A stretch of 64,000 nt of DNA from Limnomonas spitsbergensis (Eukaryota > Chlorophyta > Chlorophyceae > Chlamydomonadales), in contig JAYJMM010000088.1 in assembly GCA_037349105.1 (NCBI GenBank), forward strand, positions 1-64,000, written 5' to 3'. The notes beneath the pieces are model-generated. The model did no database searches. It was not told where the DNA came from and saw only the letters and a program-made list of their open reading frames with translations. Shown here piece by piece: positions 32,307 to 61,519 of this stretch (positions are counted from its first letter, which is position 1; every line of letters starts with the position of its first letter). The position numbers and the translations under genes were made by a program.

Positions 32307-32347
32307 GGTGATACCAATTGGTTATTGGAATAACCAATTGTATCACC
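32307..32347. other. hairpin-forming palindrome inside the outer TIR element
   Basis: GGTGATAC, then CAATTGGTTATT, two G, AATAACCAATTG and TATCACC form a near-perfect stem of about 19 bp. It starts within the left terminal repeat. The same hairpin is in the second copy at 36247-36287. Confidence 0.7.
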
Positions 32348-32479
32348 ATGTAAAATGCTGCGACAATCAATAACCAACTTAAATCACCGCGATTTAACCG
32401 CCCAAACCCTCGGAAACCCTCGAAATTTGCGTTAAGCCAGGATAGCCGCGAAAAATTTCTCTAGTTGATATCTCTTGCG

Positions 32480-32971: not shown

Positions 32972-32985
32972 GGATGACAGTGTTT

Positions 32986-33115
32986 ATGGACCCCTGAGTT
33001 TGATTGGACCCCTGAGATTGAATGGACCACTGAGTTTGAATGGACCCCTGAGTTTGATTGGACCCTTGAGGTTGATTGGACCCCTGAGGTTGAATGAACC
33101 CCTGAGTTTGAACCT
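32986..33115. repeat. 18-bp minisatellite, about 7 units (copy 1)
   Basis: The unit is TGGACCCCTGAGTTTGAT with small variants. It begins right after the stop of the 163-residue frame. The equivalent in copy 2 lies at 36926-37055. Confidence 0.85.
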
Positions 33116-33230
33116 AAGCTGGCGATGTAAAAAAAATAAATGAATAACCAATTTAAATCACTGTTGAAAATGCGGCCAAATCCCTTTAACCAATTTGTTA
33201 TCACCATTTTCTATTTTCCATCGATTTTCT

Positions 33231-33829
33231 TTACCGTAGTATCAGTCCGATTTCGTTTTATTGATCGTTTTTCAAGAAAACGAACCGTTGATTTTAATAA
33301 AAATGTGTACCGTGGGACAAAAACGAACCATAAACGAATATTTAAGCCCCAAACCCTAAACAAATTGCCACAGAAAGAGTAGCGCCGTTCATGTCGCAAA
33401 CACGAATCTTCCCGGAGCAGCACAAGTAGCCACAGCTCCTGCCACAGTGATTATTGATTTAGACCGGATGTCGAGATAGTAGGCGAGCGGCCCCGCCGCG
33501 TCTTCCAACCGCATCAGAAGAAAACGAAGGCCAGTCGCCGAAGAAAGCAGGCCTTTACAGCTCGATACTATGAGGGCGTCCCACTCCTTCAAGTTATCCG
33601 GCAGGCCAAGGAGGTCGCGGCTCTCAGAGTTGCGCGCCCAGCAACCATTCAGCGGAAAGGCAAGCGGTTTGAGCGGTTCTGGAGCAAAAACGAACCAGTG
33701 ATCGTAAAATTTTCAGCCTCCGATCAGAAAAACGAACCACTAAAACGAAAGCGTGATTTTGTTAATTAGGAGGTTTCCAAACAAAAAACGAATTCAATAT
33801 AAAACGAAAATTGACTGATACTACGGTAA
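33231..33829. mobile_element. TIR element (inner, nested), copy 1
   Basis: It is bounded by 31-bp inverted repeats (29 of 31 matching) at 33231-33261 and 33799-33829, beginning TTACCGTAGTATCAGTC. Like the outer element it has TA at each flank and the terminus CCGTAGT, so both probably belong to one superfamily. The interior is AT-rich with repeated AAACGAACC motifs. No coding frame is convincing. Confidence 0.65.
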
Positions 33830-33871
33830 CCAATATCATCGTATCACCAAATCATCGTATCACTACGGTAC

Positions 33872-35995
33872 TGTAAAACGCCAGAGACTTCGCTCATAAT
33901 TCATTATTGGGGTGCGCGAACATGGGTGCTCGCTAATAATAATTCAAAAAACACCGGTGCGCGGAGTGTCTGTCAGGTGCCCAAACAACTGTTTTGAGGG
34001 TGCGCGGTAAGAATTTAAAACAACAGATGTAAAAAACCGCGTGCTCGCGTGCAACTGTTTGATTTGACATCCGTCGAGGGATCCTTACGCCAGTCCCCGT
34101 AGCGAAGCTCAATCCCGAGGCAGAGACAGGTGCTGACGACTGCTGATGTTTGGGGGCCCCATCAGCCACACGTTTCCTGAGGCCAGGAACCGGCGGAGGA
34201 GGAAAGTGACACCTATGCTGACGACTATTGCTGACCGTGTACTATCCTTGCTAGCATCAAACGAGGGTGTTCACTGAGTTTACTGTACTGGCTGAAAGTG
34301 CTGCGCGGACGGAAATTAATATTGTTTTCAGTGAGGCGCGGCGTTAAATTAAATTACCGGCTGAACGGCGTTAAATTAAATTAAAATGTTGCCGCTACGC
34401 GACCATTTTTTACAATATTTTTTGGCTTCGCGACGAACAAACTAAATTATCTTTAGGGGGTGCGCGGACCCTTAGGCGTTGTACGGTACCCAACAATGAT
34501 TCGCCAAAATCACTTACAGAATTACTGGGAACAACATCAGCACGATCATGGAGGGGATGGGGTGGAGAGGTGAGGCAACAGCAGTAGCGCACTTGAGTAG
34601 TGTGCAACGTGATGCCAGGGTACATGGCTGATGGCTCCATCATCATGCTGTACAGTACAACGATTGCTTAATGTCACTGGCTGATCTCACCCTATCTGAA
34701 CAGTGCATGGCTACATCATCACGCGTACCCCGTATAAGTAAGTACGGTACGTAGGAAAGAATATATGGGAACAAGAGAAACACAATTGTTTGAGGTGTCC
34801 CCTGTTCGATCAGCTGTCGTTCTAACGCTAGCGTCCTCCCACGCATCAGCCATTTTTCGGAAAGGCCAAGCAGATCAAACTATCAAAGCAAGGCTGCATT
34901 CTCTCGCAGGTACAAGTGTAAAGGATTCGCCTTCCTCTTGCGTCAATCCATCCGATCTGTAGCCAATCCGAAGCCTACGCTTTCTTCTTTCCAGGCAATC
35001 GCCTTTTCGAAAAGAATAGGTCGGGCGAACCAGAGGGTGCAAACCAGGGGGTCGGACGGATAGGAAATCCTTAGCCTTAGGTACTATATAAAGTATCCAA
35101 GATAGCTGCGCTGATATTCGTCCCGGGTATCCTTCCTTTCAATACACTATTGGGAACTCTTGATGAAGCACCTACCTGTGGGAATAGATGCTGGGGCCCT
35201 CTGAGCTTTGTTACGCTGGTGAATTGGCATGGCTGCAATGAGCAGCGGCGGGTTGCAACAAATCCCCGATGATTGGTTGAAGTTATTGGGCGCTGCTATA
35301 TGCGGTCGAGAACGAACTACAATATCGAAAACGGCAAAGCTTGCTTGCCTGCCTCTTAGAAGCAGATCGCAGCTGTTCCTTCTGTTTTAATGTTATGTGA
35401 GGATGACATGTATCCCTTGTAGTCGTGGCGAAGAACAACCCTCAGATTGCCCTCGCCTTCAATCCCCAGCGAAGAAACTCACGCCCCGAGACCAGCATGT
35501 ATTACAGGGTCACCAGTAGGCAGTAACAGTAGCAGTGACGACAACAGCACTAGCGACAGCAACGGCTGTCGTGACACCCAAGGCACCTACTACTGCTAAT
35601 ACCTACCTCTCCACCGCCTCCTCCTCTTTTTCCTAGGACTTGCATGGTTGCATGCCACATCAGGGATCACACCAGCCTCATGCATGTCAGACTCCCATGC
35701 ACCCTCTCTATGCATCCTCCCATGCAACCCCATGAAAGGAATGAAATACAAAACATTCATATCATCGATATCTGGGATGACATCGGCGTCTTGCAGATTG
35801 TGTGACCCTAGGCCCCATGCATGGTCTCAAAAATGGTTCCCAACTTCCCATTGGACCCCATGCTGAGCCCCTAATCCCAGGGTTACCCAGAACGACCGTT
35901 TGGGTCCAAGTCCCATACCGTTTAACCGTTAACCGTATCGCACCGTTTAACAATACCGTACCGAGTTAAAACATCGTGTCGGCCATTTCCTAACA
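33872..35995. other. remainder of duplicated unit, no gene seen (copy 1)
   Basis: This is mostly AT-rich noncoding sequence. It shows GGGGTGCGCG at 33909 and a similar GGGGGTGCGCGG at 34455. It has a direct repeat GGCGTTAAATTAAATTA near 34339 and 34368. A GC-richer stretch at 35400-35650 has CAGTAGCAG-like runs. At the end lies TTACCCAGAACGACCGTTT, which resembles the 45-bp repeat found after copy 2. Short open frames in this part differ between copies by disabling changes or show no motif. Confidence 0.6.
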
Positions 35996-36419
35996 CTTTC
36001 TTTCTTTCTTATGACTGCCTTCGCCTTTGCAGCTAGCAGCACGAAGGATGCGCGCTTGACTGCCGTGAGGGTATCCAAGGTAGTCAGGAGGGAGGTTGGA
36101 AGTTTATCAAGGATGCCTTTTGTAGCCACATAAAGCAACAGCGGTTGAGGAAGCAGGTGTAGGGAGGGAGAGGCTACAACAACAGAATCATGGATTTTTG
36201 CGGCGCTCGTTTTGAGAATTTCCGTACCGTAGTGATACGATGATTTGGTGATACCAATTGGTTATTGGAATAACCAATTGTATCACCATGTAAAATGCTG
36301 CGACAATCAATAACCAACTTAAATCACCGCGATTTAACCGCCCAAACCCTCGGAAACCCTCGAAATTTGCGTTAAGCCAGGATAGCCGCGAAAAATTTCT
36401 CTAGTTGATATCTCTTGCG

Positions 36420-36911
36420 ATGGAGGGCCCCAGCGGTGGACCAGGTCCACGTCCAGGTGCTGCTAGCTCACTACTAAGGCCTCCTGCGAGGCAGCGTAAC
36501 CTTTTCGATTTCATGCCCCGGGTTCTTCCGGGGCAGCCTAGTGCTTCCACGCAATTCGTCAGGCTAGATCCAGAGGTACAGCGACAAAAGGAAGAGAGGC
36601 TCTTGGAGACGCAGCGCAGGGCTCAACTTGACCCACACTCGGGAGCTGCAAAGCGCCCTCGCATCCTGTCGGCGCTCCGGCAAGCGACGAGCAGGTTCGC
36701 AGGTAATGTCTGGGCAGCGCTAGCCAGCCTACTGGATCAGGAGCCAGCGCGACTGTCTCTTAACCTGGGCAAACGCAGCCTTACAATGATAGAGGCAGCA
36801 GCAGGCCGCCTAGATCAGGGGCTGCAGAGGCTGGCTGCGGCTGTTGCTGCAAGCAAGTCCACGGGGTGCATCAAGTGCAGGTGGTCTGCAAAGGGCTGTG
36901 GATCCTGCTGA
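36420..36911 (+). CDS. unrecognised 163-residue protein in TIR element, copy 2
   Basis: The protein is identical to the frame at 32480-32971. The single nucleotide difference I found (CTC to CTA, Leu) is silent. With so little divergence one silent change is not proof of selection. Features are the same: Gly/Pro-rich start, RNLFDFMPR motif, charged Gln/Glu/Arg stretch, and a Cys-rich C-terminus ending in GCGSC before TGA. Function is unknown; a transposase-derived fragment is the best guess because of its position inside an inverted-repeat element. Confidence 0.45.
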   Translation: MEGPSGGPGPRPGAASSLLRPPARQRNLFDFMPRVLPGQPSASTQFVRLDPEVQRQKEERLLETQRRAQLDPHSGAAKRPRILSALRQATSRFAGNVWAALASLLDQEPARLSLNLGKRSLTMIEAAAGRLDQGLQRLAAAVAASKSTGCIKCRWSAKGCGSC

Positions 36912-36925
36912 GGATGACAGTGTTT

Positions 36926-37055
36926 ATGGACCCCTGAGTTTGATTGGACCCCTGAGATTGAATGGACCACTGAGTTTGAATGGACCCCTGAGTTTGATTG
37001 GACCCTTGAGGTTGATTGGACCCCTGAGGTTGAATGAACCCCTGAGTTTGAACCT
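36926..37055. repeat. 18-bp minisatellite, about 7 units (copy 2)
   Basis: Same 18-bp array as at 32986-33115, carried in the duplicated segment with no unit-number change. Confidence 0.85.
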
Positions 37056-37170
37056 AAGCTGGCGATGTAAAAAAAATAAATGAATAACCAATTTAAATCA
37101 CTGTTGAAAATGCGGCCAAATCCCATTAACCAATTTGTTATCACCATTTTCTATTTTCCATCGATTTTCT

Positions 37171-37769
37171 TTACCGTAGTATCAGTCCGATTTCGTTTTA
37201 TTGATCGTTTTTCAAGAAAACGAACCGTTGATTTTAATAAAAATGTGTACCGTGGGACAAAAACGAACCATAAACGAATATTTAAGCCCCAAACCCTAAA
37301 CAAATTGCCACAGAAAGAGTAGCGCCGTTCATGTCGCAAACACGAATCTTCCCGGAGCAGCACAAGTAGCCACAGCTCCTGCCACAGTGATTATTGATTT
37401 AGACCGGATGTCGAGATAGTAGGCGAGCGGCCCCGCCGCGTCTTCCAACCGCATCAGAAGAAAACGAAGGCCAGTCGCCGAAGAAAGCAGGCCTTTACAG
37501 CTCGATACTATGAGGGCGTCCCACTCCTTCAAGTTATCCGGCAGGCCAAGGAGGTCGCGGCTCTCAGAGTTGCGCGCCCAGCAACCATTCAGCGGAAAGG
37601 CAAGCGGTTTGAGCGGTTCTGGAGCAAAAACGAACCAGTGATCGTAAAATTTTCAGCCTCCGATCAGAAAAACGAACCACTAAAACGAAAGCGTGATTTT
37701 GTTCATTAGGAGGTTTCCAAACAAAAAACGAATTCAATATAAAACGAAAATTGACTGATACTACGGTAA
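37171..37769. mobile_element. TIR element (inner, nested), copy 2
   Basis: Copy of the nested element at 33231-33829, duplicated with its host. One substitution (GTTAATT to GTTCATT) separates the interiors that I compared. Confidence 0.65.
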
Positions 37770-37811
37770 CCAATATCATCGTATCACCAAATCATCGTAT
37801 CACTACGGTAC

Positions 37812-39908
37812 TGTAAAACGCCAGAGACTTCGCTCATAATTCATTATTGGGGTGCGCGAACATGGGTGCTCGCTAATAATAATTCAAAAAACACCGGTGC
37901 GCGGAGTGTCTGTCAGGTGCCCAAACAACTGTTTTGAGGGTGCGCGGTAAGAATTTAAAACAACAGATGTAAAAAACCGCGTGCTCGCGTGCAACTGTTT
38001 GATTTGACATCCGTCGAGGGATCCTTACGCCAGTCCCCGTAGCGAAGCTCAATCCCGAGGCAGAGACAGGTGCTGACGACTGCTGATGTTTGGGGGCCCC
38101 ATCAGCCACACGTTTCCTGAGGCCAGGAACCGGCGGAGGAGGAAAGTGACACCTATGCTGACGACTATTGCTGACCGTGTACTATCCTTGCTAGCATCAA
38201 ACGAGGGTGTTCACTGAGTTTACTGTACTGGCTGAAAGTGCTGCGCGGACGGAAATTAATATTGTTTTCAGTGAGGCGCGGCGTTAAATTAAATTACCGG
38301 CTGAACGGCGTTAAATTAAATTAAAATGTTGCCGCTACGCGACCATTTTTTACAATATTTTTTGGCTTCGCGACGAACAAACTAAATTATCTTTAGGGGG
38401 TGCGCGGACCCTTAGGCGTTGTACGGTACCCAACAATGATTCGCCAAAATCACTTAAAGAATCACTGGGAACAACATCAGCACGATCATGGAGGGGATGG
38501 GGTGGAGAGGTGAGGCAACAGCAGTAGCGCACTTGAGTAGTGTGCAACGTGATGCCAGGGTACATGGCTGATGGCTCCATCATCATGCTGTACAGTACAA
38601 CGATTGCTTAATGTCACTGGCTGATCTCACCCTATCTGAACAGTGCATGGCTACATCATCACGCGTACCCCGTATAAGTAAGTACGGTACGTAGGAAAGA
38701 ATATATGGGAACAAGAGATACACAATTGTTTGAGGTGTCCCCTGTTCGATCAGCTGTCGTTCTAACGCTAGCGTCCTCCCACGCATCAGCCATTTTTCGG
38801 AAAGGCCAAGCAGATCAAACTATCAAAGCAAGGCTGCATTCTCTCGCAGGTACAAGTGTAAAGGATTCGCCTTCCTCTTGCGTCAATCCATCCGATCTGT
38901 AGCCAATCCGAAGCCTACGCTTTCTTCTTTCCAGGCAATCGCCTTTTCGAAAAGAATAGGTCGGGCGAACCAGAGGGTGCAAACCAGGGGGTCGGACGGA
39001 TAGGAAATCCTTAGCCTTAGGTACTAGGTATTCGTCCCGGGTATCCTTCCTTTCAATACACTATTGGGAACTCTTGATGAAGCACCTACCTGTGGGAATA
39101 GATGCTGGGGCCCTCCGAGCTTTGTTACGCTGGTGAATTGGCATGGCTGCAATGAGCCGCGGCGGGTTGCAACAAATCCCCGATGATTGGTTGAAGTTAT
39201 TGGGCGCTGCAATATGCGGTCGAGAACGAACTACGATATCGAAAACGGCAAAGCTTGCTTGCCGCCTCTTAGAAGCAGATCGCAGCTGTTCCTTCTGTTT
39301 TAATGTTATGTGAGGATGACATGTATCCCTTGTAGTCGTGGCGATGAACAACCCTCAGATTGCCCTCGCCTTCAATCCCCAGCGAAGAAACTCACGCCCC
39401 GAGACCAGCATGTATTACAGGGTCACCAGTAGGCAGTAACAGTAGCAGTGACGACAACAGCACTAGCGACAGCAACGGCTGTCGTGACACCCAAGGCACC
39501 TACTACTGCTAATACCTACCTCTCCACCGCCTCCTCCTCTTTTTCCTAGGACTTGCATGGTTGCATGCCACATCAGGGATCACACCAGCCTCATGCATGT
39601 CAGACTCCCATGCACCCTCTCTATGCATCCTCCCATGCAACCCCATGAAAGGAATGAAATACAAAACATTCATATCATCGATATCTGGGATGACATCGGC
39701 GTCTTGCAGATTGTGTGACCCTAGGCCCCATGCATGGTCTCAAAAATGGTTCCCAACTTCCCATTGGACCCCATGCTGAGCCCCTAATCCCAGGGTTACC
39801 CAGAACGACCGTTTGGGTCCAAGTCCCATACCGTTTAACCGTTAACCGTATCGCACCGTTTAACAATACCGTACCGAGTTAAAACATCGTGTCCGCCATT
39901 TCCTAACA
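37812..39908. other. remainder of duplicated unit, no gene seen (copy 2)
   Basis: Counterpart of 33872-35995, shorter by 27 bp. A 96-codon minus frame at 39061-39351 exists only in this copy, because of the small differences between copies. That argues against it being a gene. Confidence 0.6.
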
Positions 39909-44524: not shown

Positions 44525-44572
44525 ATGGCTTTCGCACTGACCAAGAAGGCGTCTGGATGCCGCATGCAAAAG
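44525..44572 (+). other. LHCA: LHCA exon 1 (transit peptide start)
   Basis: ATG sits in a good context (CTCAAGATGGCT). It encodes [16 protein letters not shown] and ends at phase 0 before GTGCGT. Its link to exon 2, 1.4 kb away, is inferred. It rests on the transit-peptide composition, a correct phase and the exact total length. Confidence 0.75.
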
Positions 44573-47500
44573 GTGCGTTTTGGGTGCTGTCTGCATGCTG
44601 TGTGCAATTATCCTTCATCAGCTGCCTCCGTGAAAGAGCCTATCCGATAATCCCACAGAAGGGCGAATGGGTCAATCGGACAAATCCGCACAGAAAGGCA
44701 TTTTTGATGTCATCCAATCTCGGTCGGGCCGCAATTTCTTCCCGTGCGACGAAGCATCCTCGCCCCCCTTGCGATCTAGAACAGGGGGCATGGATGGAGA
44801 AGTGCCGAACTGTCCCCCCTCGCTATGACAGGAGCTGTTGGCTATGCGCTGATTTGTTCGGATTAGCGTGCACCATTTCGATTTGAAGAGGTATCATCTT
44901 GTTTGCGGAGCACATGACATTCCTCTTGCTGATCGCAACCAGTAACGCATCACGTGCCCATCTAGAAGCATGCTACTGTGCAATATTGATCGCCATTGAA
45001 GGGGCCCATTGCTGTCTATATTGTTATGTTTGCATTGGGTAGTAGAGTTGCAGCTTTGCCCATTGTCGCTCGTCTTGGAGCATAGCCAGCGCTCCTCGCT
45101 TGCTAGCACTCTCGATCACCGACGAATTGCGCTGGATCGTCCAAGAACGTGCAGTAACCATTTAGCAGCAGCGCTGTCGTTTTCGCCCGAATCCTCCCTC
45201 GCTCTCGACCTTCGCTCCAGACATACGTCACCTCATGATCAGGATACGCTTTACCACACCTCGGCCCTTCAGCATGGTTCATGGGCGTGTGTACTTCTGC
45301 TTCTTCACCCACAGCACATGCGACGCACCCTAGTAACCCTGCCCCTCCTCAGCACTTTACTGTGCGCATGCGCTGAACTATCGCTCTGTCCAGGTTCTTC
45401 TCTTCAGCCCCTCCCTACTCTTCCCAACATACCCTGCCCCATCGCACCATTCGTGTTTTCGAAAACTCCTGCCCGACCTTCCCTTCCACAACCCCAATCC
45501 TTTTGAAGAGAGTTACAACTGCGCTCCACAGGGGTCCTGGGGACAAATCCTCAGTGCAGCATGGGCGGTGTCCGGTGGGGTGGTCGTTTAAACTGTTTCC
45601 CTAACCCCCCCCCCCTGGCATCGGCGGCCGACCGGCGCTCCCTTCCCTGGTCAGCACCCTTCCCATCCAATCCTACTCCCTGCCCCTCCTATTCAAACCT
45701 GCTACCCCTTCTACTTGCCTACATGCTCATACCAGGAATTGGGGCCATACACTGACAGATTGCCATCTGCCCAGCAGCAGAACTTCCCACCTCAACTGCC
45801 TGCCTGTCTACACGTTCATAGCAGGCATCCAGGTCTAACACTGGCAGCTTGTCGTTAGCCCTGCAGCAGAGCTTTCTGCCTCAACTGCCTGCCTGCCTAG
45901 CCACCCGACCTCATAAACCCCCTGCCCTCTGCCCTCTGACTCCTGCCCTGCAATGACCACACCCTGCCCTCCTGCTGGATATTTGTTTCCCTTCCCTCTG
46001 CCCCTATCCAGGCGTCCCGGTCGACCACTGTCAAGGTGTCAGCCGCCATGCAGCAGAACTTCCTGCCTGGCAACCCCCGCCCCGCCTACCTGGATGGATC
46101 CATGGCTGGAGAGTGAGTCAGACAGGCACCTCATGCAGGCAGGAGCCATGCATTCTCCACTAGCTTCGGAACCCTGCCCTGCCTTACTGACCAGACAGTG
46201 AGAGAGGCTGGCAGATTAGCACAGCCCATGCTTCTCTACTAGCCCGATTAGCCCCGCCTTGCCTACCTGGATGGATCCATGGCCGGAGGGTGAGTCAGAT
46301 GGACTCCTTATGCAGACAGGCACCTCATGCAGGCAGGCACCTCGTGCAGACAGGCTAGCTCAGCACATGGTTTTCTACTAGCCCGATTAGCCCTGCCTTG
46401 CCTACCTGGATGGATCCATGGCCGGAGGGTGTGTCAGTTGGACTCCTTATGCAGACAGGCACCTCATGCAGGCAGGCACCTCGTGCAGGCAGGCTAGCTC
46501 AGCACATGGTTTTCTACTAGCCCGATTAGCCCTGCCTTGCCTACCTGGATGGATCCACGGCTGGAGAGTGAGTCAGATGGACTCCTTATGCAGACAGGCA
46601 CCTCATGCAGGCAGGCACCTCGTGCAGACAGGCTAGCTCAGCACATGTTTTTCTACTAGCCCGATTAGCCCTGCCTTGCCTACCTGGATGGATCCACGGC
46701 TGGAGAGTGAGTCAGATGGACTCCTTATGCAGACAGGCACCTCATGCAGGCAGGCACCTCGTGCAGACAGGCTAGCTCAGCACATGGTTTTCTACTAGCC
46801 CGATTAGCCCCGCCTTGCCTACCTGGATGGATCCATGGCCGGAGGGTGAGTCAGACAGGCAGGCACATTAGCATGCCATTTGTTTCACAGCCTGAGAAGC
46901 CCTGTCTGGCTTCAATGACCAGAGAGTGAGAGAATCAGGCATCCCTGCAGACAGGCTGTCATAGCCCATGCATATTTTACCAGTCTATCACAAGTCATAT
47001 ACCAGTCCGATAGGCCCCGCCTCGACCAACTGCCCAGAGAGTGAGAGAATCAGGCAAGGCAGCCCTGCAGATAGTCTATCATAGCACAGGCATATTTGCA
47101 CCCGCTAGGTAGGGCCCCCCCCCCCCGACCAGCTGCCCAGAAAGTGAGTCAGACAGGTATACCTACAGGCACACTAACACACCGTTGCATTTCCTTCTAG
47201 CCCGACTAGCCCGCTCGGCACACTTTGTTGTGTTCATACCTTCAGAGTGATTGCTGCTAGACCAGTGAGTCTAGCAAGCGCAGGCTTCCTAGACTGATCC
47301 ATGCAGACAGGCCTTTGACGGCAAAGTGCGGTATGTACCCTGGCTAGAATGGCTTAGGGTCAGTGGCATGCAGGCTAGGTGTCAGCGGCATGCAGGCTAG
47401 GTGTCAGTGGCATGCAGGCTAGGTGTCAGCGGCATGCAGGCTAGGTGTCAGCGGCATGCAGGCTAGGTGTCAGCGGCATGCAGGCTAGGTGTCAGCGGCA

Positions 47501-50500
47501 TGCAGGCTAGGGTCCGGGATCCTTGACGTCTGTGAGGCTAAGTGTGGGCAGGGGCATGCAGGTTAAGGCAGAGGCTGGGCTGGGGCAGCCTAGGGCAGGT
47601 AAGCACGCAGGCAAGGGGCACGCAGGCTAAGGGTCAAGGGCAGACTTGCTAGAGGGATGGCCGGAGGGGCAGACTTGCTTAAGGCAAAGGTCGAAGGGGC
47701 AGACTTGCTAGAGGCAAAGGCTGAAGGGGCAGACTTGCTACAGGGGATGGCCGGAGGGGCAGACTTGCTAGAGGCAAAGGTCGAAGGGGCAGACTTGCTA
47801 GAGGGGATGGCCGGAGGGGCAGACTTGCTAGAGGGGATGGCCGGAGGGGCAGACTTGCTAGAGGGGATGGCCGGAGGGGCAGACTTGCTAGAGGGGATGG
47901 CCGGAGGGGCAGACTTGCTAGAGGGGATGGCCGGAGGGGCAGACTTGCTAGAGGGGATGGCCGGAGGGGCAGACTTGCTAGAGGGGATGGCCGGAGGGGC
48001 AGACTTGCTAGAGGGGATGGCCGGAGGGGCAGACTTGCTAGAGGGGATGGCCGGAGGGGCAGACTTGCTAGAGGGGATGGCCGGAGGGGCACGCCGCCTG
48101 GATGTGCAATGCCAGGCAGGCTGGGGGCTGAGGTCGGGAGAGATCTGGGGCAGGCTGGGGGCTGAGGTCGGGAGAGATCTGGGGCAGGCTGGGGGCTGAG
48201 GTCGGGAGAGATCTGGGGCAGGCTGGGGGCTGAGGTCGGGAGAGATCTGGGGCAGGCTGGGGGCTGAGGTCGGGGGAGATATGGGGCAGGCTGGGGGTTG
48301 AGGTCGGGGGAGATCTGGGGCAGGCTGGGGGCTGAGGTCAGGGGAGATCTGGGGCAGGCTAGGGGCTGAGGTCGGGGGAGATCTGGGGCAGGCTGGGGGC
48401 TGAGGTCGGGGGAGATCTGGGGCAGGCTGGGGGCTGAGGTCGAGAGAGATCTGGGGCAGGCTGGGGGCTGAGGTCGGGGGAGATCTGGGGCAGGCTGGGG
48501 GCTGAGGTCGGGGAAGATCTGGGGCAGGCTGGGGGCTGAGGTCGGGGGAGATCTGGGGCAGGCTGGGGGCTGAGGTCGGGGGAGATCTGGGGCAGGCTGG
48601 GGGCTGAGGTCGGGAGAGATCTGGGGCAGGCTAGGGGCTGAGGTCGGGGGAGATCTGGGGCAGGCTAGGGGCTGAGGTCAGGGAGATCTAGGGCAGGCTG
48701 GGGGCTGAGGTCGGGGGAGATCTGGGGCAGGCTGGGGGCTGAGGTCGGGAGAGATCTGGGGCAGGCTAGGGGCTGAGGTCGGGGGAGATCTGGGGCAGGC
48801 TAGGGGCTGAGGTCGGGGAGATCTGGGGCAGGCTAGGGGCTGAGGTCGGGGGAGATCTGGGGCAGGCTGGGGGCTGAGGTCGGGGGAGATCTGGGGCAGG
48901 CTGGGGGCTGAGGTCGAGAGAGATCTGGGGCAGGCTGGGGGCTGAGGTCGGGGGAGATCTGGGGCAGGCTGGGGGCTGAGGTCGGGGAAGATCTGGGGCA
49001 GGCTGGGGGCTGAGGTCGGGGGAGATCTGGGGCAGGCTGGGGGCTGAGGTCGGGGGAGATCTGGGGCAGGCTGGGGGCTGAGGTCGGGAGAGATCTGGGG
49101 CAGGCTAGGGGCTGAGGTCGGGGGAGATCTGGGGCAGGCTAGGGGCTGAGGTCAGGGAGATCTAGGGCAGGCTGGGGGCTGAGGTCGGGGGAGATCTGGG
49201 GCAGGCTGGGGGCTGAGGTCGGGAGAGATCTGGGGCAGGCTAGGGGCTGAGGTCGGGGGAGATCTGGGGCAGGCTAGGGGCTGAGGTCGGGGAGATCTGG
49301 GGCAGGCTGGGGGCTGAGGTCGGGGGAGATCTGGGGCAGGCTAAGGGCTGAGGTCGGGAGAGATCTGGGGCAGGCTAGGGGCTGAGGTCGGGGGCGATCT
49401 GGGGCAAGCTAGGGGCTGAGGTCGGGAGAGATCTGGGGCAGGCTAGGGGCTGAGGTCGGGGGAGATCTGGGGCAGGCTAGGGGCTGAGGTCGGGAGAGAT
49501 CTGGGGCAGACTGGGGGCTGAGGTCGGGGGAGATCTGGGGCAGGCTGGGGGCTGAGGTCGGGGGAGATCTGGGGCAGGCTGGGGGCTGAGGTCGGGAGAG
49601 ATCTGGGGCAGGCTAGGGGCTGAGGTCGGGGGAGATCTGGGGCAGGCTAGGGGCTGAGGTCGGGAGAGATCTGGGGCAGGCTGGGGGCTGAGGTCGGGAG
49701 AGATCTGGGGCAGGCTACGGGCTGAGGTCAGGGGAGATCTGGGGCAAGCTAGGGGCTGAGGTCGGGGAGATCTGGGGCAGGCTGGGGGCTGAGGTCGGGG
49801 GAGATCTGGGGCAAGCTAGGGGCTGAGGTCGGGGGAGATCTGGGGCAGGCTGGGGGCTGAGGTCGGGAGAGATCTGGGGCAGGCTAGGGGCTGAGGTCGG
49901 GGGAGATCTGGGGCAGGCTAGGGGCTGAGGTCGGGGAGATCTGGGGCAGACTGGGGGCTGAGGTCGGGGGAGATCTGGGGCAGGCTAGGGGCTGAGGTCG
50001 GGAGAGATCTGGGGCAGGCTAGGGGCTGAGGTCGGGGGAGATCTGGGCAAGCTAGGGGATGAGGTCGGGAGAGATCTGGGGCAGGCTAGGGGCTGAGGTC
50101 GCGAGAGATCTGGGGCAGGCTGGGGGCTGAGGTCGGGGGAGATCAGGGGCAGGCTGGGGGCTGAGGTCCGGGGAGATCTGGGGCAGGCTGGGGGCTGAGG
50201 TCGGGAGAGATCTGGGGCAGGCTGGGGGCTGAGGTCGGGGGAGATCTGGGGCAGGCTAGGGGCTGAGGTCGGGGGAGATCAGGGGCAGGCTAGGGGCTGA
50301 GGTCGGGGGAGATCTGGGGCAGGCTAGGGGCTGAGGTCGGGGAGATCTGGGGCAGACTGGGGGCTGAGGTCGGGGGAGATCTGGGGCAGGCTAGGGGCTG
50401 AGGTCGGGAGAGATCTGGGGCAGGCTAGGGGCTGAGGTCGGGGGAGATCTGGGCAAGCTAGGGGATGAGGTCGGGAGAGATCTGGGGCAGGCTAGGGGCT

Positions 50501-53500
50501 GAGGTCGCGAGAGATCTGGGGCAGGCTGGGGGCTGAGGTCGGGGGAGATCAGGGGCAGGCTGGGGGCTGAGGTCCGGGGAGATCTGGGGCAGGCTGGGGG
50601 CTGAGGTCGGGAGAGATCTGGGGCAGGCTGGGGGCTGAGGTCGGGGGAGATCTGGGGCAGGCTAGGGGCTGAGGTCGGGGGAGATCAGGGGCAGGCTGGG
50701 GGCTGAGGTCGGGAGAGATCTGGGGCAGGCTAGGGGCTGAGGTCCGGGGAGATCTGGGGCAGGCTGGGGGCTGAGGTCGCGAGAGATCTGGGGCAGGCTG
50801 GGGGCTGAGGTCCGGGGAGATCTGGGGCAGGCTAGGGCCTGAGGTCGGGGGAGATCAGGGGCAGGCTGGGGGCTGAGGTCGGGAGAGATCTGGGGCAGGC
50901 TAGGGGCTGAGGTCGGGGGAGATCTGGGGCAGGCTGGGGGCTGAGGTCAGGGGAGTTCTGGGGCAGGCTGGGGGCTGAGGTCGGGGGAGTTCTGGGGCAG
51001 GCTAGATGCTGAGGTCGGGGGAGTTCTGGGGCAGGCTGGGGGCTGAGGTTGGGGGCCCTCTGACTGCCCTTTTGCACCGCCCTCTGACAGCCCTTCTGCT
51101 CCGCCCTCTGACTGCCCTTCCGCTCCGCCCCCTGACTGCCCTTTTGCACCGCCCTCTTACTGCCCTTCTGCACCGCCCTCTGACTGCCCTTCTGCTCCGC
51201 CCTCTGACTGCCCTTCTGCTCCGCCCTCTGACTGCCTTTTTGCACCGTCCTCTGACTGCCCTTCTGCTCCGCCCTCTGACTGCCCTTTTGCACCGCCCTC
51301 TGACTGCCCTTCTGCTCCGCCCTCTGACTGCCCTTTTGCACCGCCCTCTGACTGCCCTTTTGCCCTGCCTTCTCGCAGCTTTGGATTCGACCCCCTCAGC
51401 TTGGGCAGGGACCCCGAGGCGCTGCGCTGGTGAGTGAACCCAGGGGCCGTGCTGCTAATGAGGCAGCTATTGAGGCAGAGAGGGTGATGTCCTGCACTCA
51501 TGCCCAATATGCTGCTGAAAAAAGACTAGGACACCGAGGGGCTGCGCTGGTAAGAGGACCCTCCTGACTGGCTGCATCAGGGGCCGTGCTGCTATTGGGG
51601 CAGAGAGGGTGACGTCCTGCACTCATGCCCAATATGCTGCTGATATTATGCGCATGTGTTCTTGTTGAGCAATGACTCTTGAGGGGCTGCGCTGGTAAGA
51701 GGACCCTCCTGACTGGCTGCATCAGGGGCCGTGCTGCTATTGAGGCAGAGAGGGTGATGTCCTGCACTCATGCCCAATATGCTGCTGAAAAAAGACTAGG
51801 ACACCGAGGGGCTGCGCTGGTAAGAGGACCCTCCTGACTGGCTGCATCAGGGGCCGTGCTGCTATTGAGGCAGAGAGGGTGACGTCCTGCACTCATGCCC
51901 AATATGCTGCTGAAAAAAGACTAGGACACCGAGGGGCTGCGCTGGTAAGAGGACCCTCCTGACTGGCTGCATCAGGGGCCGTGCTGCTATTGAGGCAGAG
52001 AGGGTGATGTCCTGCACTCATGCCCAATATGCTGCTGAAAAAAGACTAGGACACCGAGGGGCTGCGCTGGTAAGAGGACCCTCCTGACTGGCTGCATCAG
52101 GGGCCGTGCTGCTATTGAGGCAGAGAGGGTGATGTCCTGCACTCATGCCCAATATGCTGCTGAAAAAAGACTAGGACACCGAGGGGCTGCGCTGGTAAGA
52201 GGACCCTCCTGACTGGCTGCATCAGGGGCCGTGCTGCTATTGGGGCAGAGAGGGTGACGTCCTGCACTCATGCCCAATATGCTGCTGATATTATGCGCAT
52301 GTGTTTTTGTTGAGCAATGACTCTTGAGGGGCTGCGCTGGTAAGAGGACCCTCCTGACTGGCTGCATCAGGGGCCGTGCTGCTATTGAGGCAGAGAGGGT
52401 GATGTCCTGCACTCATGCCCAATATGCTGCTGAAAAAAGACTAGGACACCGAGGGGCTGCGCTGGTAAGAGGACCCTCCTGACTGGCTGCATCAGGGGCC
52501 GTGCTGCTATTGGGGCAGAGAGGGTGATGTCCTGCACTCATGCCCAATATGCTGCTGATATTATGCGCATGTGTTCTTGTTGAGCAATGACTCTTGAGGG
52601 GCTGCGCTGGTAAGAGGACCCTCCTGGCTGGCTGCATCAGGGGCCACTAATGAGGCGCTTGCCTCAATGGAAACACGAATTTGGCATGCCCCGCATGTTT
52701 GCTTTCACAGCCCTGTGGCGCGTCATTTTATCATGCAACGCCCCATAGTGTAAATGCTGTCATGACCCTCCCCCCCCATCCTCACTTTGTTGATACCAAT
52801 GGAAATACGAATCTCGCGGTTGCCGGCAGTTGCTTGGCTAAAACGCCTCATGTTAAACCGCTGTCGTAATGCTGTCAATTTTTGTAAACTGTGGTCGTGT
52901 GCTGATGATGAGATTACAACTTACGGATCAACCATCTTACTCTGCATGGGGAGAACTGAGTGTACTGAGGCACACGACACACCTGGGCATGTGACACCTT
53001 CCATGTGGACACGCGAAACACGTTGGTACACATCAACCAACGCTGAGGCATAGGCACGTTGCACACCTTGCACAACACTCCCCGTAAACCTCCCCCTCCT
53101 ACCCTCCACACTTCCACCCACCCTCCACACTTGTATGTGTTCCATACAAACCTCATCCCAAGGAACGCCTCTTGCCTGATGCGCTGACAGGTGCTGGAGA
53201 TGATGAGTCCCCTTAACACATATGACACACACTTCATTTCACCAGAGCCTCCCTTCATCAGCATCAACGACCCATGACTACTCTGCCACGAACACCTGCC
53301 TATTAGAATATTTGCGAGCATGAGCGAGCCCTCTTTGACAGCCAGCATCATTATCAATACACAGCCGTCAAAGAATTTAGCACATTCAAAGCTGTCAAGC
53401 ATACAAATGTTTCAAAACAACAAAAAGCCGGTGCACCATGTCGTGCCATATGATACTCACATTGTTTGCATTGCCACGACTGTTGCTGCCGTCTCCACAT

Positions 53501-56500
53501 GTGCTGATGATGAGATTACAACTTACGGATCAACCATCTTACTATGCATGGGGAGAACTGAGTGTACTGAGGCACACGCCAATGCACACCACCCGGTGTG
53601 ACCACACAACCACTCACCTCCTACTACACACCCACATTCCCACCACCACTCACCCACCACTAAGCATGCAAACACTCAAATGTCGCCTTGCTTGCAACCA
53701 CTCACCCACCTCTGAACATGCAACAATTAACCTGCCACCTAACATGCAACCACTCACCCACATCCACTCACCCACAGTCACACACATGTCACTTTGCTTC
53801 TAACCACTCAGCCGCCTCCACTCACACACGGCCACTTACCTACCACTAAGCATACAACCACACACCTGCCACTTTGCCCACAACCACTCACCCACCACTG
53901 AACATGCAACCACTCACCCGCCTCAACTCACCCACATTCACTCACATACCACTGAGCATGCACCACTCACCTGCCAATTTAATTGTAACCACACCTGCCA
54001 CTTTGTCTGCAACCACTCGCTTGTAACCTTCCATGCAAACACTGACCCAGCACTTTGCTTGCAGCCACTCACCCCACAGCCACTCACCTGCCACTAAGCA
54101 TGCATCCACTCACCCACTACTGAACATGCAATCACTCACCCACAGCCACTCACCCGCAGCCACTCATCTACCACTTTGTCTGCATGTACCAGCAGACTGA
54201 GCTCGTGCACGGCCGCACTGCCATGACTGCTGTGGCAGAAATCCTTCTCCCACTCCCACTCACCCACCACCTCACATGCAACCACTCACCCACCTACACT
54301 CATCTGTCATTTTGCCTGCAGGTACCAGCAGGCAGAGCTCGTGCACGGCCGCACTGCCATGACCGCCGTGGCAGGAATCCTTCTTCCCGGACTGGCCACC
54401 AAGGCAGGAATTGCGGACATCCCCGAGTGGTACGACGCGGGCAAGGCCTACATCAGCAGCCCAGATGCCATCCCTTTTGGTGAGAATATCTGTGTTTGGA
54501 ATCGAAGTAAGCGTGGTCCGACGCGGGCAAGGCCTACATCAGCAGCTCAGATGCCATTCCTTTTTGGTGAGCATACCTGTTTTTTGTTTACGTTTAACTG
54601 AGGGAGAGTGGTATGATGCGGGCAAGGCCTACATAAGCAGCCCAGATGCCTTTCAGTGAGAACAGAGCTTTGTGTTTCCTCTGTTACCATAGTAAGTCAG
54701 GTGAAGAGGTGACATCTTGAGCCCACATGCTGACCTCTTGATCCTCACCCACTCCGGCCCTCTCGTATGTTCGTCAACCTCTTGATCCCTCCCCCCTCCT
54801 CCCCCCAGGCCCCCTCCTGTTTGTCAACTTCGTGATGACCCACTTCGTGGAGGTCAAGAGGTGGCAGGACTTCCGCAAGCCCAAGAGCCAGGGGGAGGCG
54901 GGAACCTTCTTTGGCTTTGAGAGTGCACTGGCATTCAGCGGAGAGAACGGTGGGTCTTAGTGGGGAGTGGGTGGTCCAAGAGCCAGGGGGAGGCGGGATC
55001 ATTTCTTGGCTTTGAGAGCGCACTGGCCTGCGGAGAGAACGGTGGGGCAGTGTGGGGAGTGGGTAGCCCACTCTTTCGCTTTGAGAGCTAAAATGCCCTC
55101 GGGTGGATCATTTCCCGGGTTTTGAGAGTGCAATGGCCTCCAGCGGGAACAGTAGGGCGCCCTCTATATGGTCATAGTAGGTCAACGTAGGTCATCCTCT
55201 TTCGCCCCCCCCCCCCCCCATTCCAGCCATGCCCACCCCGGCAGGCCGTTGCGCGCCGATTCTTATTTTGCTTTGAGAGCTGACATGGTTTGGGCGGGGT
55301 CCCTCTTTGGCTTTGAGAGCATGTTGGCCTTCAACAGAGAAGATCGATAGTCATAGTGGGTCCGCTCTTTCTTTTGATTTTTGAAGGGAGAGACAACTTG
55401 CCTTTGACAGCAGCAACTTCAATACCTTCCAACCTGAATACCTACCAATCTCTGCTTGACTCAACCCCCGTTGCATGCCCTAAAGATAAACCCCGAGGCC
55501 CCTCTGACCCCTCAAAGCTGCCTGAATGCCACCACCCCCCTGCCTGACTAAAACTGAACCTTGCTGCATTCTCGCAGGTTCACCCCACAACATTCCTGTA
55601 GGTTACCCTGGAGGCTTCTTCGACCTTTTGAACTTGGCTCCTTTGACCCCCCAGCCTGAATGCCACCCCCCCCCCACCTGACTTGCATCTCACTTTATTC
55701 CTGTAGGCTACCCCGGAGGCCCCTTTGACCCCTTGAACCTGCCTGAATGCAATCCCCCTCTGCCTGACTGAAACTGATCCCTGCTGTATTGCTGTAGGTT
55801 ACCCCGGAGGCCCCTTTGACCCCTTGAACCTGGCTCCTTTGAACCCCCCAACTTACGAGACTGAGGACTGGAAGCTCAAGGAGATCAAGAACGGAAGGTG
55901 GGTGGAAGCTGGAGGAGATGGGTAGAAGCTGAAGAGTGACATGGACCGTGGTTGGAAGCTGGCGGGTTGGAAGGATATGGGTAGAAGCAGAGGAGTGCAG
56001 GAAGCTACTCGGAAACTGAAAGGAACAAGAACCGAGCGGGTGTATGGAAGCTGGACTGTTTATAATGGAAGGTGATATAATGGAAGGAATGGAAGCTCAA
56101 GGAGATCAAGAACGGAAGGTGAGGTGGAAGCTGGAGGAGTTAATGAAAGGTAGGCTGTACCACAGAGTTTTGTATTATAAGAACAGAAACCCTGATGGCC
56201 TCCAGATTCGGCAGAGGGGTCTACAAAGCCTCAAGGGATCAGTCCTCGGAACCCTGTGCCTGGTCCAGTAACCTCATCCGGGTTGGGCTCTCTGACACAA
56301 AGCACAAATGGCAAATGCAAATTACCCTGAACCCTGAATTTACTGCCCTTGTCTCGTTCCCTTGTCAAGCGCCATGATGGATTATTTTCTTCATCGCGCA
56401 GCACGATGAACCTCGCAGTAACTGAATCAGGGTTGAGCTCTGATCTTAAATGCCCGTAAACTACCTCTCCATGAACACACTGCCCTCATCTCCGAACCCT

Positions 56501-56679
56501 TATCTCTTAACCCTTACCTCTTAACTCCTCGCAGGCTTGCCATGATGGCGTTTGTCGGCTTCATCGCGCAGCACGCCGCGACCGGCAAGGGCCCCGTGGA
56601 GAACCTGTTCGCCCACGTGTCGGACCCCTTCCACAATAACTTTGTCGAGAACGGCTTCTCGGTGCCCAACTTGCTTTAA
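44525..56679 (+). CDS. LHCA: photosystem I light-harvesting chlorophyll a/b protein, seven exons
   Basis: Plastid antenna protein that binds chlorophylls a and b and passes excitation to photosystem I. Exons: 44525-44572, 46012-46112, 51379-51429, 54322-54479, 54809-54949, 55798-55897, 56535-56679. Joined they give 744 nt, 247 residues plus TAA. All introns are GT-AG and every phase fits. Residues 1 to about 27 look like a stroma-targeting peptide (Ala, Ser, Lys, Thr rich). The mature part starts near [20 protein letters not shown]. Helix B has [10 protein letters not shown] with chlorophyll ligands Glu72 and His75 and the pairing Arg77. The middle helix has VEVKRW with Glu134. Helix C has KEIKNGRLAM with Glu195, Asn198 and Arg200, then Gln212 and His227. 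[18 protein letters not shown] and TGKGPVENL favour LHCA of the Lhca2/Lhca4 kind over LHCB. The His at position 75, not Asn, argues against a far-red Lhca3/Lhca4-type site. The introns are packed with repeats. Confidence 0.93.
44573..45710. other. LHCA intron 1, unique part
   Basis: No repeat block or gene is recognised here. The second half (45100-45710) is pyrimidine-rich, with poly-C runs near 45606. Short open frames on both strands have no motif. Confidence 0.55.
45711..45895. repeat. two upstream echoes of the exon 2 acceptor edge
   Basis: Two degenerate units of about 95 bp precede exon 2. The second reads ATCCAGGTCTAACACTGGCA and later CTGCAGCAGAGCTTTCTGCC. This parallels ATCCAGGCGTCCCGG...GTC and ATGCAGCAGAACTTCCTGCC of the real exon. 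The first has CCCAGCAGCAGAACTTCCCA. The AG acceptor is still present in the second echo. Confidence 0.7.
46012..46112 (+). other. LHCA: LHCA exon 2 (transit peptide end and mature N-terminus)
   Basis: It follows a pyrimidine tract and TATCCAG. It encodes [11 protein letters not shown], then [19 protein letters not shown] and MAG, and ends in GA before GTGAGT. LPG..P.YLDGS..GD is a hallmark N-terminal LHCI motif. The first base of exon 3 completes the Asp codon. Confidence 0.9.
46113..46862. repeat. 139-bp tandem repeat echoing the exon 2 donor edge, 5 units
   Basis: Downstream of exon 2, TACCTGGATGGATCCA and a GT donor (GGGTGAGTCAG or GAGTGAGTCAG; one unit has GGGTGTGTCAG) recur at 46264, 46403, 46542, 46681 and 46820. 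Spacing is exactly 139 after the first step of 177 bp from the true exon (46087). Each unit also carries AGCCCGATTAGCCC and CTCATGCAGGCAGGCACCTC. These units keep coding-like sequence, but the intron continues to 51378. Confidence 0.95.
46863..47170. repeat. decayed copies of the exon 2 donor-edge repeat
   Basis: Three or so further units are eroded: AATGACCAGAGAGTGAGAGA near 46914, CCAACTGCCCAGAGAGTGAG near 47026 and CCAGCTGCCCAGAAAGTGAG near 47128. Each lies in the same context (CCCGCCT or similar before, CAGGCA after). They continue the 139-bp series with rising divergence. Confidence 0.6.
47361..47515. repeat. 22-bp minisatellite in intron 2, about 7 units
   Basis: The unit is CATGCAGGCTAGGTGTCAGC plus GG. 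The same unit forms a longer array at about 61065-61410. Confidence 0.93.
47535..47643. repeat. 109-bp segment duplicated at 61411-61519
   Basis: The segment begins AGGCTAAGTGTGGGCAGGGG and ends GGGTCAAGGGCAG. It appears identical, as read, to 61411-61519, and in both places it directly follows a 22-bp minisatellite block. Confidence 0.93.
47641..48092. repeat. 30-bp minisatellite in intron 2, about 15 units
   Basis: The unit is GCAGACTTGCTAGAGGGGAT plus GGCCGGAGGG. The first units vary (GGCAAAGG in place of GGGGATGG) and the last ten are perfect. The plus-strand frame reads [10 protein letters not shown] repeatedly, but this is inside the intron. Confidence 0.96.
48105..51045. repeat. 34-bp minisatellite in intron 2, about 86 units
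   Basis: The unit is GCAGGCTGGGGGCTGAGGTC plus GGGGGAGATCTGGG, and most units hold an AGATCT site. Variants are GGGAGAG, CTAGGGG and 33-bp forms. Two higher-order duplications are visible. One of 473 bp is marked by CGAGAGAGAT at 48441 and 48914 and TCAGGGAGATCTA at 48679 and 49152. One of 406 bp is marked by ATCTGGGCAAGCTAGGGGAT at 50041 and 50447. Confidence 0.96.
51050..51368. repeat. 24-bp pyrimidine minisatellite abutting the exon 3 acceptor
   Basis: The unit is TGACTGCCCTTCTGCTCCGC plus CCTC, alternating with a TTTTGCACCG form, about 13 units. The last unit merges into TTTTGCCCTGCCTTCTCGCAG, so the exon 3 polypyrimidine tract belongs to, or derives from, the repeat. Confidence 0.93.
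51379..51429 (+). other. LHCA: LHCA exon 3 (51-nt micro-exon)
   Basis: It follows TTCTCGCAG. It completes Asp50, encodes [16 protein letters not shown] and ends TG before GTGAGT. GFDPL.LG is the conserved LHC motif before helix B. Exon 4 completes Trp67. Confidence 0.93.
51430..52640. repeat. 125/145-bp tandem repeat echoing the exon 3 donor edge, 9 units
   Basis: GCTGCGCTGG, which in the real exon starts at 51421, recurs at 51541, 51686, 51811, 51936, 52061, 52186, 52331, 52456 and 52601. Two unit types exist. The 125-bp type ends GCTGAAAAAAGACTAGGACA. The 145-bp type has GATATTATGCGCATGTGTT and GAGCAATGACTC. The echo ACACCGAGGGGCTGCGCTG|GTAAGA keeps the exon frame (Asp-Thr-Glu-Gly-Leu-Arg-Trp in 125-bp units) and an intact donor. 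Confidence 0.96.
52641..52898. other. LHCA intron 3, unique stretch
   Basis: No repeat, gene or exon echo is recognised. It starts with a truncated end of the 125/145-bp unit and has a poly-C run near 52770. Confidence 0.5.
52899..52978. repeat. 80-bp direct repeat in intron 3, copy 1
   Basis: It begins GTGCTGATGATGAGATTACA and ends GAGGCACACG. It recurs at 53501-53580 with one substitution (CTCTGC to CTATGC) seen. Confidence 0.9.
53501..53580. repeat. 80-bp direct repeat in intron 3, copy 2
   Basis: Second copy of 52899-52978. The 520 bp between the copies show no gene and are not repeated after copy 2. Confidence 0.9.
53590..54185. repeat. degenerate CACTCACCCACC-rich tract in intron 3
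   Basis: This is low-complexity C/A-rich sequence built of variants of CAACCACTCACCCACC and CTGAACATGCAACC. It has no fixed period and continues on both sides of the exon 4 echo up to the true acceptor. Confidence 0.8.
54186..54255. repeat. upstream echo of the exon 4 acceptor edge
   Basis: About 65 bp match the start of exon 4: TACCAGCAGACTGAGCTCGT, GCACGGCCGCACTGCCATGA, then GGCAGAAATCCTTCT. Translation gives [20 protein letters not shown]. The acceptor is lost (GCAGG changed to GCATG), and after about 65 bp the echo ends in CACTCACC sequence. Confidence 0.92.
54322..54479 (+). other. LHCA: LHCA exon 4 (helix B)
   Basis: It follows TTTGCCTGCAG. It encodes residues 68-119 with [10 protein letters not shown] and IPEWYDAGK, and ends with one base of Gly120 before GTGAGA. 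Confidence 0.95.
54509..54665. repeat. two downstream echoes of the exon 4 donor edge
   Basis: The first (about 54511-54575) repeats GACGCGGGCAAGGCCTACAT, CAGCAGCTCAGATGCCATTC and a donor GGTGAGC. The second (about 54604-54665) has GAGTGGTATGATGCGGGCAA and ends in CAGTGAGAAC. Both lie in intron 4 right after the true donor. Confidence 0.92.
54809..54949 (+). other. LHCA: LHCA exon 5 (middle helix)
   Basis: It follows CTCCCCCCAG. It encodes residues 121-166 with [18 protein letters not shown] and GFESALAF, and ends with one base of Gly167 before GTGGGT. Confidence 0.95.
54975..55350. repeat. five downstream echoes of the exon 5 donor edge
   Basis: CTTTGAGAG, at 54915 in the exon, recurs at 55010, 55079, 55120, 55271 and 55311, followed by degenerate forms of CACTGGCATTCAGCGGAGAG. 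The first echo (54976-55045) is nearly complete, with CCAAGAGCCAGGGGGAGGCG and AACGGTGGGG. Later ones decay progressively. Confidence 0.9.
55488..55752. repeat. three upstream echoes of the exon 6 acceptor edge
   Basis: Copies of TACCCCGGAGGCCCCTTTGA lie at about 55488 (AAACCCCGAGGCCCCTCTGA), 55603 (TTACCCTGGAGGCTTCTTCG) and 55709 (CTACCCCGGAGGCCCCTTTG). The last two retain a TGTAG acceptor. Between them lie CCTGAATGC and poly-C runs. Confidence 0.9.
55798..55897 (+). other. LHCA: LHCA exon 6 (GYPGG loop to start of helix C)
   Basis: It follows ATTGCTGTAG. It encodes residues 168-199 with [14 protein letters not shown] and [10 protein letters not shown], and ends in AG before GTGGGT. Three upstream look-alikes of its 5' edge were rejected because only this copy continues into helix C. 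Confidence 0.95.
55905..56130. repeat. downstream echoes of the exon 6 donor edge
   Basis: The clearest lies at 56090-56122: TGGAAGCTCAAGGAGATCAA then GAACGGAAGGTGAGG, identical to the exon end for more than 30 bp with an intact donor. A decayed one lies near 56010-56042 (GGAAACTGAAAGGAACAAGA), and GGAAGCTGGAGGAG fragments fill the space. Confidence 0.88.
56365..56425. repeat. upstream echo of the exon 7 acceptor edge
   Basis: CGCCATGATGG, then TTCATCGCGCAGCACGATGA, parallels GCCATGATGGCG, then TTCATCGCGCAGCACGCCGC of exon 7. Internal sequence has drifted and CTCGCAG follows about 15 bp later. Confidence 0.8.
56535..56679 (+). other. LHCA: LHCA exon 7 (helix C and C-terminus)
   Basis: It follows CTCCTCGCAG. 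It completes Arg200, encodes [20 protein letters not shown] and [15 protein letters not shown], and ends SVPNLL then TAA at 56677-56679. Confidence 0.96.
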
Positions 56680-61064: not shown

Positions 61065-61410
61065 TGCAGGCTAGGGCAGGCTAAGTGTCAGCGGCATGCA
61101 GGCTAGGTGTCAGCGGCATGCATGCTAGGTGTCAGCAGCATGCAGGCTAGGTGTCAGCGGCATGCAGGCTAGGTGTCAGCGGCATGCAGGCTAGGTGTCA
61201 GCGGCATGCAGGCTAGGTGTGGGCGGCATGCAGGCTAGGTGTCAGCGGCATGCAGGCTAGGTGTCAGCGGCATGCAGGCTAGGTGTGGGCAGGGGCGTGC
61301 AGGCTAGGTGTCAGCGGCATGCAGGCTAGGTGTCAGCGGCGTGCAGGCTAGGTGTCAGCGGCGTGCAGGCTAGGTGTCAGCGGCATGCAGGCTAGGTGTC
61401 AGCGGCATGC
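61065..61410. repeat. 22-bp minisatellite, about 15 units
   Basis: Same CATGCAGGCTAGGTGTCAGC-GG unit as in LHCA intron 2, with some GTGGGC and GCGTGC variants. Confidence 0.95.
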
Positions 61411-61519
61411 AGGCTAAGTGTGGGCAGGGGCATGCAGGTTAAGGCAGAGGCTGGGCTGGGGCAGCCTAGGGCAGGTAAGCACGCAGGCAAGGGGCACGCA
61501 GGCTAAGGGTCAAGGGCAG
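61411..61519. repeat. 109-bp segment duplicated from or to LHCA intron 2
   Basis: It appears identical to 47535-47643 and follows the 22-bp array as it does there. Confidence 0.93.

Follow-up and report, generated by a model that had tools for sequence, protein, structure and literature searches.

Introners share one consensus across introns, and the duplication of exons for alternative use copies exon sequence into an intron. Tandem duplication is also said to bring about intron gain or sliding, reportedly in a potato RNA-dependent RNA polymerase (RdRp) study and in work by Zhuo et al. in 2007. In the part of a Drosophila study on which we draw (PMC2891723), the tandem duplication carries splice-site sequence and is neutralized by splicing, and introns are made or moved within exons. 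Closest of all is exon stuttering in the chicken: the part used here of Hron et al. 2026 (PMC12954441) gives 236 such introns, 190 of them on dot chromosomes rich in guanine plus cytosine (GC), and reports that intron length varies among individuals and that, GC-rich genes of the gerbil apart, no other vertebrates were found to have the pattern (data not shown there). We analyzed a window of 64,000 nucleotides (nt), the start of a contig (JAYJMM010000088.1, C88 below) of the green alga Limnomonas spitsbergensis, and found that a predicted light-harvesting gene at 44525–56679 on the plus strand holds direct copies of its own exon edges in 6/6 introns, weakly so in intron 1. Judged from sequence, the algal pattern is of the same kind as exon stuttering, with an incomplete match, and is not unprecedented; what it adds is its occurrence in another kingdom, its presence on ordinary large contigs as well, and a neutral explanation. 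Searches of the open-access literature returned, among the matches listed, no other paper on stuttering in this sense, and nothing listed for exon-boundary duplication in green algae fitted.

Joined together, the seven exons encode a protein of 247 residues with a single Pfam chlorophyll a/b-binding domain (expect value, E, 6e-47). Among solved chains its top near-full-length match was LHCA8 (9mgw_8; E 1.3e-89), which a longer multi-domain chain of light-harvesting complex (LHC) I outscored by summing several domains, and its closest database match was a Chlamydomonas eustigma protein with 74% identity. On this homology the locus is a seven-exon Lhca8-type light-harvesting gene. A spliced alignment, made with a program written for the present analysis and with the C. 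eustigma protein as template, recovered all 12 internal boundaries of the following exons, and homology reached position 56667.

44525–44572, plus strand: exon 1 of the Lhca8-like gene, with the start codon at 44525 (spliced alignment)
46012–46112, plus strand: exon 2 (spliced alignment)
51379–51429, plus strand: exon 3 (spliced alignment)
54322–54479, plus strand: exon 4 (spliced alignment)
54809–54949, plus strand: exon 5 (spliced alignment)
55798–55897, plus strand: exon 6 (spliced alignment)
56535–56679, plus strand: coding part of exon 7, with the stop codon at 56677–56679

Introns 1 to 6 measure 1439, 5266, 2892, 329, 848 and 637 nt. The genome used for searches comprised 260,226,709 bases in 124 contigs; L. 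spitsbergensis, an Arctic snow alga, has a published assembly of 260,248,090 bp in 124 contigs, the longest of 10.736 Mb, and full-length transcripts and long reads of it exist, according to the part of the genome paper used here (PMC11228838).

We call a direct copy of an exon edge within the adjoining intron an echo. Comparison of the exons and their flanks with the gene region located the following echoes.

45822–45899, plus strand: exon 2 acceptor-side echo in intron 1 (77 exonic nt, 72.5%)
46252–46861, plus strand: five exon 2 donor echoes in intron 2, within a 139-bp tandem array (sequence comparison)
51529–52645, plus strand: exon 3 donor echoes in intron 3, in a roughly 125-bp tandem array (eight by BLAST)
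54106–54251, plus strand: exon 4 acceptor echo in intron 3 (66 exonic nt; AG changed to AT)
54513–54654, plus strand: two exon 4 donor echoes in intron 4 (the first retains GT, the second ends short of the junction)
54976–55070, plus strand: exon 5 donor echo in intron 5 (69 exonic nt)
55118–55146, plus strand: partial exon 5 donor-side echo
55293–55360, plus strand: exon 5 donor echo (GT changed to AT)
55491–55744, plus strand: exon 6 acceptor echoes in intron 5 (two strong with AG, one more partial)
56011–56055, plus strand: weak exon 6 donor echo in intron 6 (27 exonic nt)
56085–56139, plus strand: exon 6 donor echo in intron 6 (96%)
56371–56405, plus strand: weak exon 7 acceptor-side echo in intron 6 (37 nt, 81%)

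An earlier note, made from the letters of this DNA, had counted such copies. Its nine donor echoes of exon 3 were recovered, the ninth (near 52597) being recognized by eye, as were, for exon 4, the acceptor echo and both donor echoes and, for exon 7, the single acceptor echo. For exon 6 the claim of three acceptor and about two donor echoes roughly holds, given two strong and one partial acceptor and one strong and one weak donor copy. The claim of at least five donor echoes for exon 2 also stands, whereas only one of its two acceptor echoes does, the second being weak at best and a narrower edge test having found no exon 2 acceptor echo; exon 5 yielded three donor echoes instead of five. The donor of exon 1 and the acceptors of exons 3 and 5 had no exonic echo in their own introns. 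Exon-bearing copies are 71–96% identical to their source, and this variation among copies points to repeated duplication events. Most of them hold exonic sequence and intronic flank in genomic order, so that they derive from genomic DNA, and an origin as insertions derived from messenger RNA (mRNA) was set aside. Each match spans one edge or part of an exon only, and none takes in an entire exon together with its two splice sites (the longest spans 77 of 101 nt), so that whole-exon duplication was rejected. The copies look like tandem duplications across splice junctions, as the note had proposed.

The settings published for the chicken screen (blastn-short, length of at least 20) returned 20 exon–intron matches in the window gene, all 20 in adjacent introns and 0 in non-adjacent ones; 11 of them reach 42.1 bits. 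By comparison, 200 shuffles of the introns produced 5 matches altogether, the best of 26.3 bits. A random exon–intron match would be adjacent with a probability of 0.245 by length, although matches inside one array are not independent and the resulting tiny P value is not to be read literally. When the 12 junction edges of 40 nt were scored, eight reached 32–70 in their own intron (donors of exons 2–6, acceptors of exons 4, 6 and 7), and the remaining four, which lack a clear echo (the exon 1 donor and the acceptors of exons 2, 3 and 5), scored 15–24; on the acceptor side of exon 2 a longer stretch matches even though the 40-nt edge does not. No junction edge scored above 25 against the other introns or above 23 on the reverse strand. 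These results confirm the observation of exon-edge copies in the introns.

A search of the genome for the PF00504 family gave 111 matches, from which we took nine intron-containing loci (L019 to L027), all of them LHC genes. They were picked by the gaps between exon matches, and long matches that looked intronless were passed over; the choice favors longer introns, so that the three echo-bearing loci among the nine are no genome-wide estimate. The loci cover internal introns; the edge-rule count below also took in at most 400 nt beyond the last exon. Small doubtful exons were removed from the models of L019, L021 and L026, and the L020 model was read by eye from the frame and GT–AG sites after its self-match had been seen. 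Echoes were present in L020, L023 and L026, which lie on contigs of 4–9.5 Mb. In L020 (contig C39), an LHC-family gene that we take to resemble LHCSR, 20 nt of an exon end and 14 nt of intron are copied together (34 nt at 100%), and a second copy has 80% identity. The start of exon 2 is copied upstream in L023 (C34), and L026 (C123) holds three downstream copies of the end of exon 1, two upstream copies of the start of exon 2 and, in the stretch after its last exon, two copies of the end of exon 2.

Counting echoes with at least 10 exonic nt and E up to 1e-3, each assigned to its nearest edge, gave 37 in 10 loci, 27 of them from the window gene and two from the stretch after the last exon of L026; many of the 37 sit in few arrays and are not independent events. 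The rule advanced in the earlier note, that 3′ edges repeat downstream and 5′ edges upstream, was kept by 37/37 (27 and 10, respectively), and none was inverted or lay in a non-adjacent intron. An exon-only screen of the same loci returned 22 adjacent matches (19 in the window gene, 3 in the others) and 0 in non-adjacent introns of the same gene, and its nine matches between different genes consisted of eight homologous LHC exons against window-gene echoes and one boundary error in the L021 model. The excess of self-edge matches that the note expected in other genes was thus not refuted on the nine loci. In the exon-only BLAST, 16 of the 22 adjacent matches reach the exon border within 1 base, and with flanks included 9 of the 10 echoes of other genes reach it.

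Set beside the accessible account of exon stuttering, the algal loci share the tandem copies, direct but imperfect, in which an exon edge and its splice site reappear in the intron next to it, the intact coding exons and the neighboring exon-free arrays. The setting differs, GC-rich dot chromosomes in the chicken as against a green alga whose examined loci have GC contents of 0.49–0.59 and three of whose echo-bearing loci lie on large contigs; because L020 has echoes at 0.49, GC-richness as a requirement is not supported. In the chicken more than 90% of sources lie no further than 1 base from the border, compared with the 16 of 22 above. Stuttering introns of the chicken are heavily covered by tandem repeats; in the alga the share of intron DNA that Tandem Repeats Finder (TRF) assigns to arrays is 52% for the window gene, 40% for L023, 8% for L020 and 0% for L026. 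Finally, intron length is variable among chickens, and the alga is known here from one assembly. Unlike in intron gain or sliding by tandem duplication, existing introns lengthen here. Introns 4 and 5 of the window gene have counterparts in L024 at matching positions of the protein, which speaks against gain of a new intron at these two sites.

Introns with echoes were longer (329–5266 nt, n = 9) than those without (110–837 nt, n = 25; one-sided P = 2.9e-5), also when the window gene was left out (3 versus 25 introns, P = 0.005), although longer introns give more room and part of this association is opportunity. Comparison at shared positions agrees in direction: intron 1 shared by paralogues measures 656 nt with an echo in L023 and 229 nt without one in L025, and introns 4 and 5 of the window gene (329 and 848 nt, with echoes) correspond to introns of 121 and 249 nt in L024, which have none. 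L024 (C41:184300–185450) is itself another Lhca8-like gene; its introns are compact, one of them being additional and none lying at the position of window intron 6. Its contig comprises 10,736,355 bases.

Exon-derived letters make up 975 of 11,411 intron nt in the window gene (8.5%), or 21% when the copied intron flank is counted. Tandem arrays cover none of the exons of this gene, and 38% of its intron DNA remains in arrays once the two echo-bearing arrays are subtracted. The heading of the earlier note, that the introns are built from echoes, was therefore overstated, and its interpretation as a whole is partly supported. Among the arrays and repeats in which no exon echo was detected are an 82-bp segment that occurs twice in intron 3 (52898–52979 and 53500–53581, 97.6% identity) and the following.

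47355–51363, plus strand: minisatellite arrays of intron 2 (units of 22, 30, 34 and 24 bp)

We consider it probable, at roughly 0.85, that the introns of the window gene grow by undirected local tandem duplication, and that events crossing a junction leave copies of exon edges. Duplications of tens to hundreds of bp would lengthen the introns. Those inside an intron would give rise to a minisatellite array, whereas a unit crossing one splice junction would leave the exon edge duplicated within the intron, in most cases together with its splice site; selection on the protein would eliminate duplications within or across a whole exon. Normal protein would still come from the copy that adjoins the exon body, and the other copies would drift as decoy splice sites. 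The outer sites would be the ones used, and decoys would be ignored or their products degraded. Replication slippage, repair and unequal recombination are candidates for the molecular cause. The claim in the note that the functional copy is the outermost one stands in so far as the contiguous copy yields the conserved protein; in part it follows from geometry. On protein homology, not RNA, the splice sites contiguous with the exons are probably the used ones.

To ask how much undirected duplication alone would produce, we simulated random tandem duplications of 20–600 bp on the exon lengths of the window gene with short starting introns, under nine settings, accepting only events inside introns or crossing one junction. 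Means over the nine settings were 4.9–5.8 of 6 introns with echoes (6/6 observed) and an exon-derived share of 0.148–0.427 (0.085 observed). Since undirected duplication with selection yields enough echoes, an exon-directed mechanism is not needed. Several points nevertheless weigh against this explanation. The observed exon-derived share falls below the 5th percentile of the simulation in 7/9 settings; neither mutation nor deletion nor large array expansion is modelled, and without the first two the simulation should over-predict that share. The pattern is also patchy, because six of the nine other loci (L019, L021, L022, L024, L025 and L027) are without echo. L019, L021 and L022 show no self-match whatever at E 0.01, so that their lack of echoes is independent of the gene models; no self-match was found in L024, the sole one in L025 joins two exons (related LHC helices), and the only one in L027, of 20 nt, lies upstream of the first modelled exon. 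In addition, L026 has echoes without a TRF array in its intron and L020 has little TRF coverage, showing that echoes can stand without a recognized array. Lastly, a block of intron 2 at 47355–47643 (the 22-bp array and flank) has a 91% copy at 61236–61519, outside the gene and about 14 kb downstream, so not all duplication is local.

Introns 2 and 3 are largely filled with repeats, as might be expected if an introner (a mobile intron-making element), or a dispersed repeat resembling exon edges by chance, had supplied the copies. Introner elements resemble the algal pattern in placing repetitive DNA inside introns; here, however, each unit belongs to its own exon, no consensus is shared between introns in the own-gene search, and exons had no match in the non-adjacent introns of their own genes. 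Moreover, the intron-2 unit, the sole echo family searched genome-wide (very common words being skipped), matched only C88:46075–46855. A unit found nowhere else in the genome is not an introner, as the earlier note had also concluded, and we regard this origin as the least probable of those considered. Duplication for alternative exons likewise copies exon sequence into an intron, but here one edge only is copied. An assembly artefact is scarcely more probable. Contig C88 is mostly satellite DNA, the near-identical 125-bp units could be miscounted, and the presumed assembly was built from PacBio continuous long reads (CLR), according to the part of the genome paper used here (PMC11228838); yet the exon-bearing copies differ by 4–29% from their source, and three loci on other contigs show the same pattern.

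The presence of echoes in all six introns could also reflect duplication aimed at exon–intron junctions, through transcription- or splicing-linked breaks or R-loops. Random duplication with selection already predicts echoes in about 5–6 of 6 introns, along with an exon-derived share above the observed one, and we consider such targeting unlikely. We give a similarly low weight to the idea that the echoes function as alternative splice sites for protein variants or expression tuning. Decoy sites were listed for matches with at least 14 exonic nt, taking the best 16 matches per edge; the ninth exon 3 copy falls outside this set. Among the matches listed in the window gene, GT was retained in 17/18 decoy donors and AG in 2/3 decoy acceptors, that is, in 19/21 located sites, but young copies are expected to retain these dinucleotides anyway. 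Use of the decoy is predicted to introduce a premature stop for 16/17 GT donors and for 2/2 AG acceptors. The exception is the first exon 4 decoy donor, whose use (54480–54567, intron 4) is predicted to add 29 residues in frame and may represent a protein variant.

The surroundings of the gene are rich in repeats. A 28.4-kb array of the 6-bp unit TCGGCA occupies 1–28453 at the contig start, and more satellites are found in the rest of C88, among them a 41-bp unit repeated over 52 kb at C88:113907–166249. A 3.9-kb segment is duplicated in tandem at 32061–39908 with 99.0% identity, and a long open frame of ankyrin repeats lies at 29877–31631 on the minus strand, where the DNA at 29961–30907 is a 99-bp tandem array. 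Pfam searches with ten of the 269 longer open reading frames of C88 gave a single short match, and no Rfam family reached the gathering threshold in 28454–64000. Elsewhere, one stretch of the PF00504 listing contains 39 long LHC matches of 149–176 bits, several of which read through a stop; this suggests that intronless or nearly intronless LHC genes have recently multiplied on a large scale.

The occurrence of the same geometry in an alga, at ordinary GC content and partly on large contigs, together with a neutral model that suffices, points to a general outcome of local tandem duplication and splicing. We lean slightly toward the view that in this alga introns generally grow, throughout the genome, by tandem duplications that span splice junctions, and that the same may hold for many eukaryotes in which local duplication is frequent. 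If so, genes would be constantly seeded with decoy copies of their own splice sites, and the chicken dot chromosomes would make visible a mutational process that is common and is filtered by splicing, rather than something peculiar to birds. Which copy is spliced can be checked directly from the full-length transcripts described for the presumed species (PMC11228838, in the part used here). The result would offer a testable account of intron lengthening that leaves the mRNA unchanged, and of one way in which cryptic splice sites can arise.

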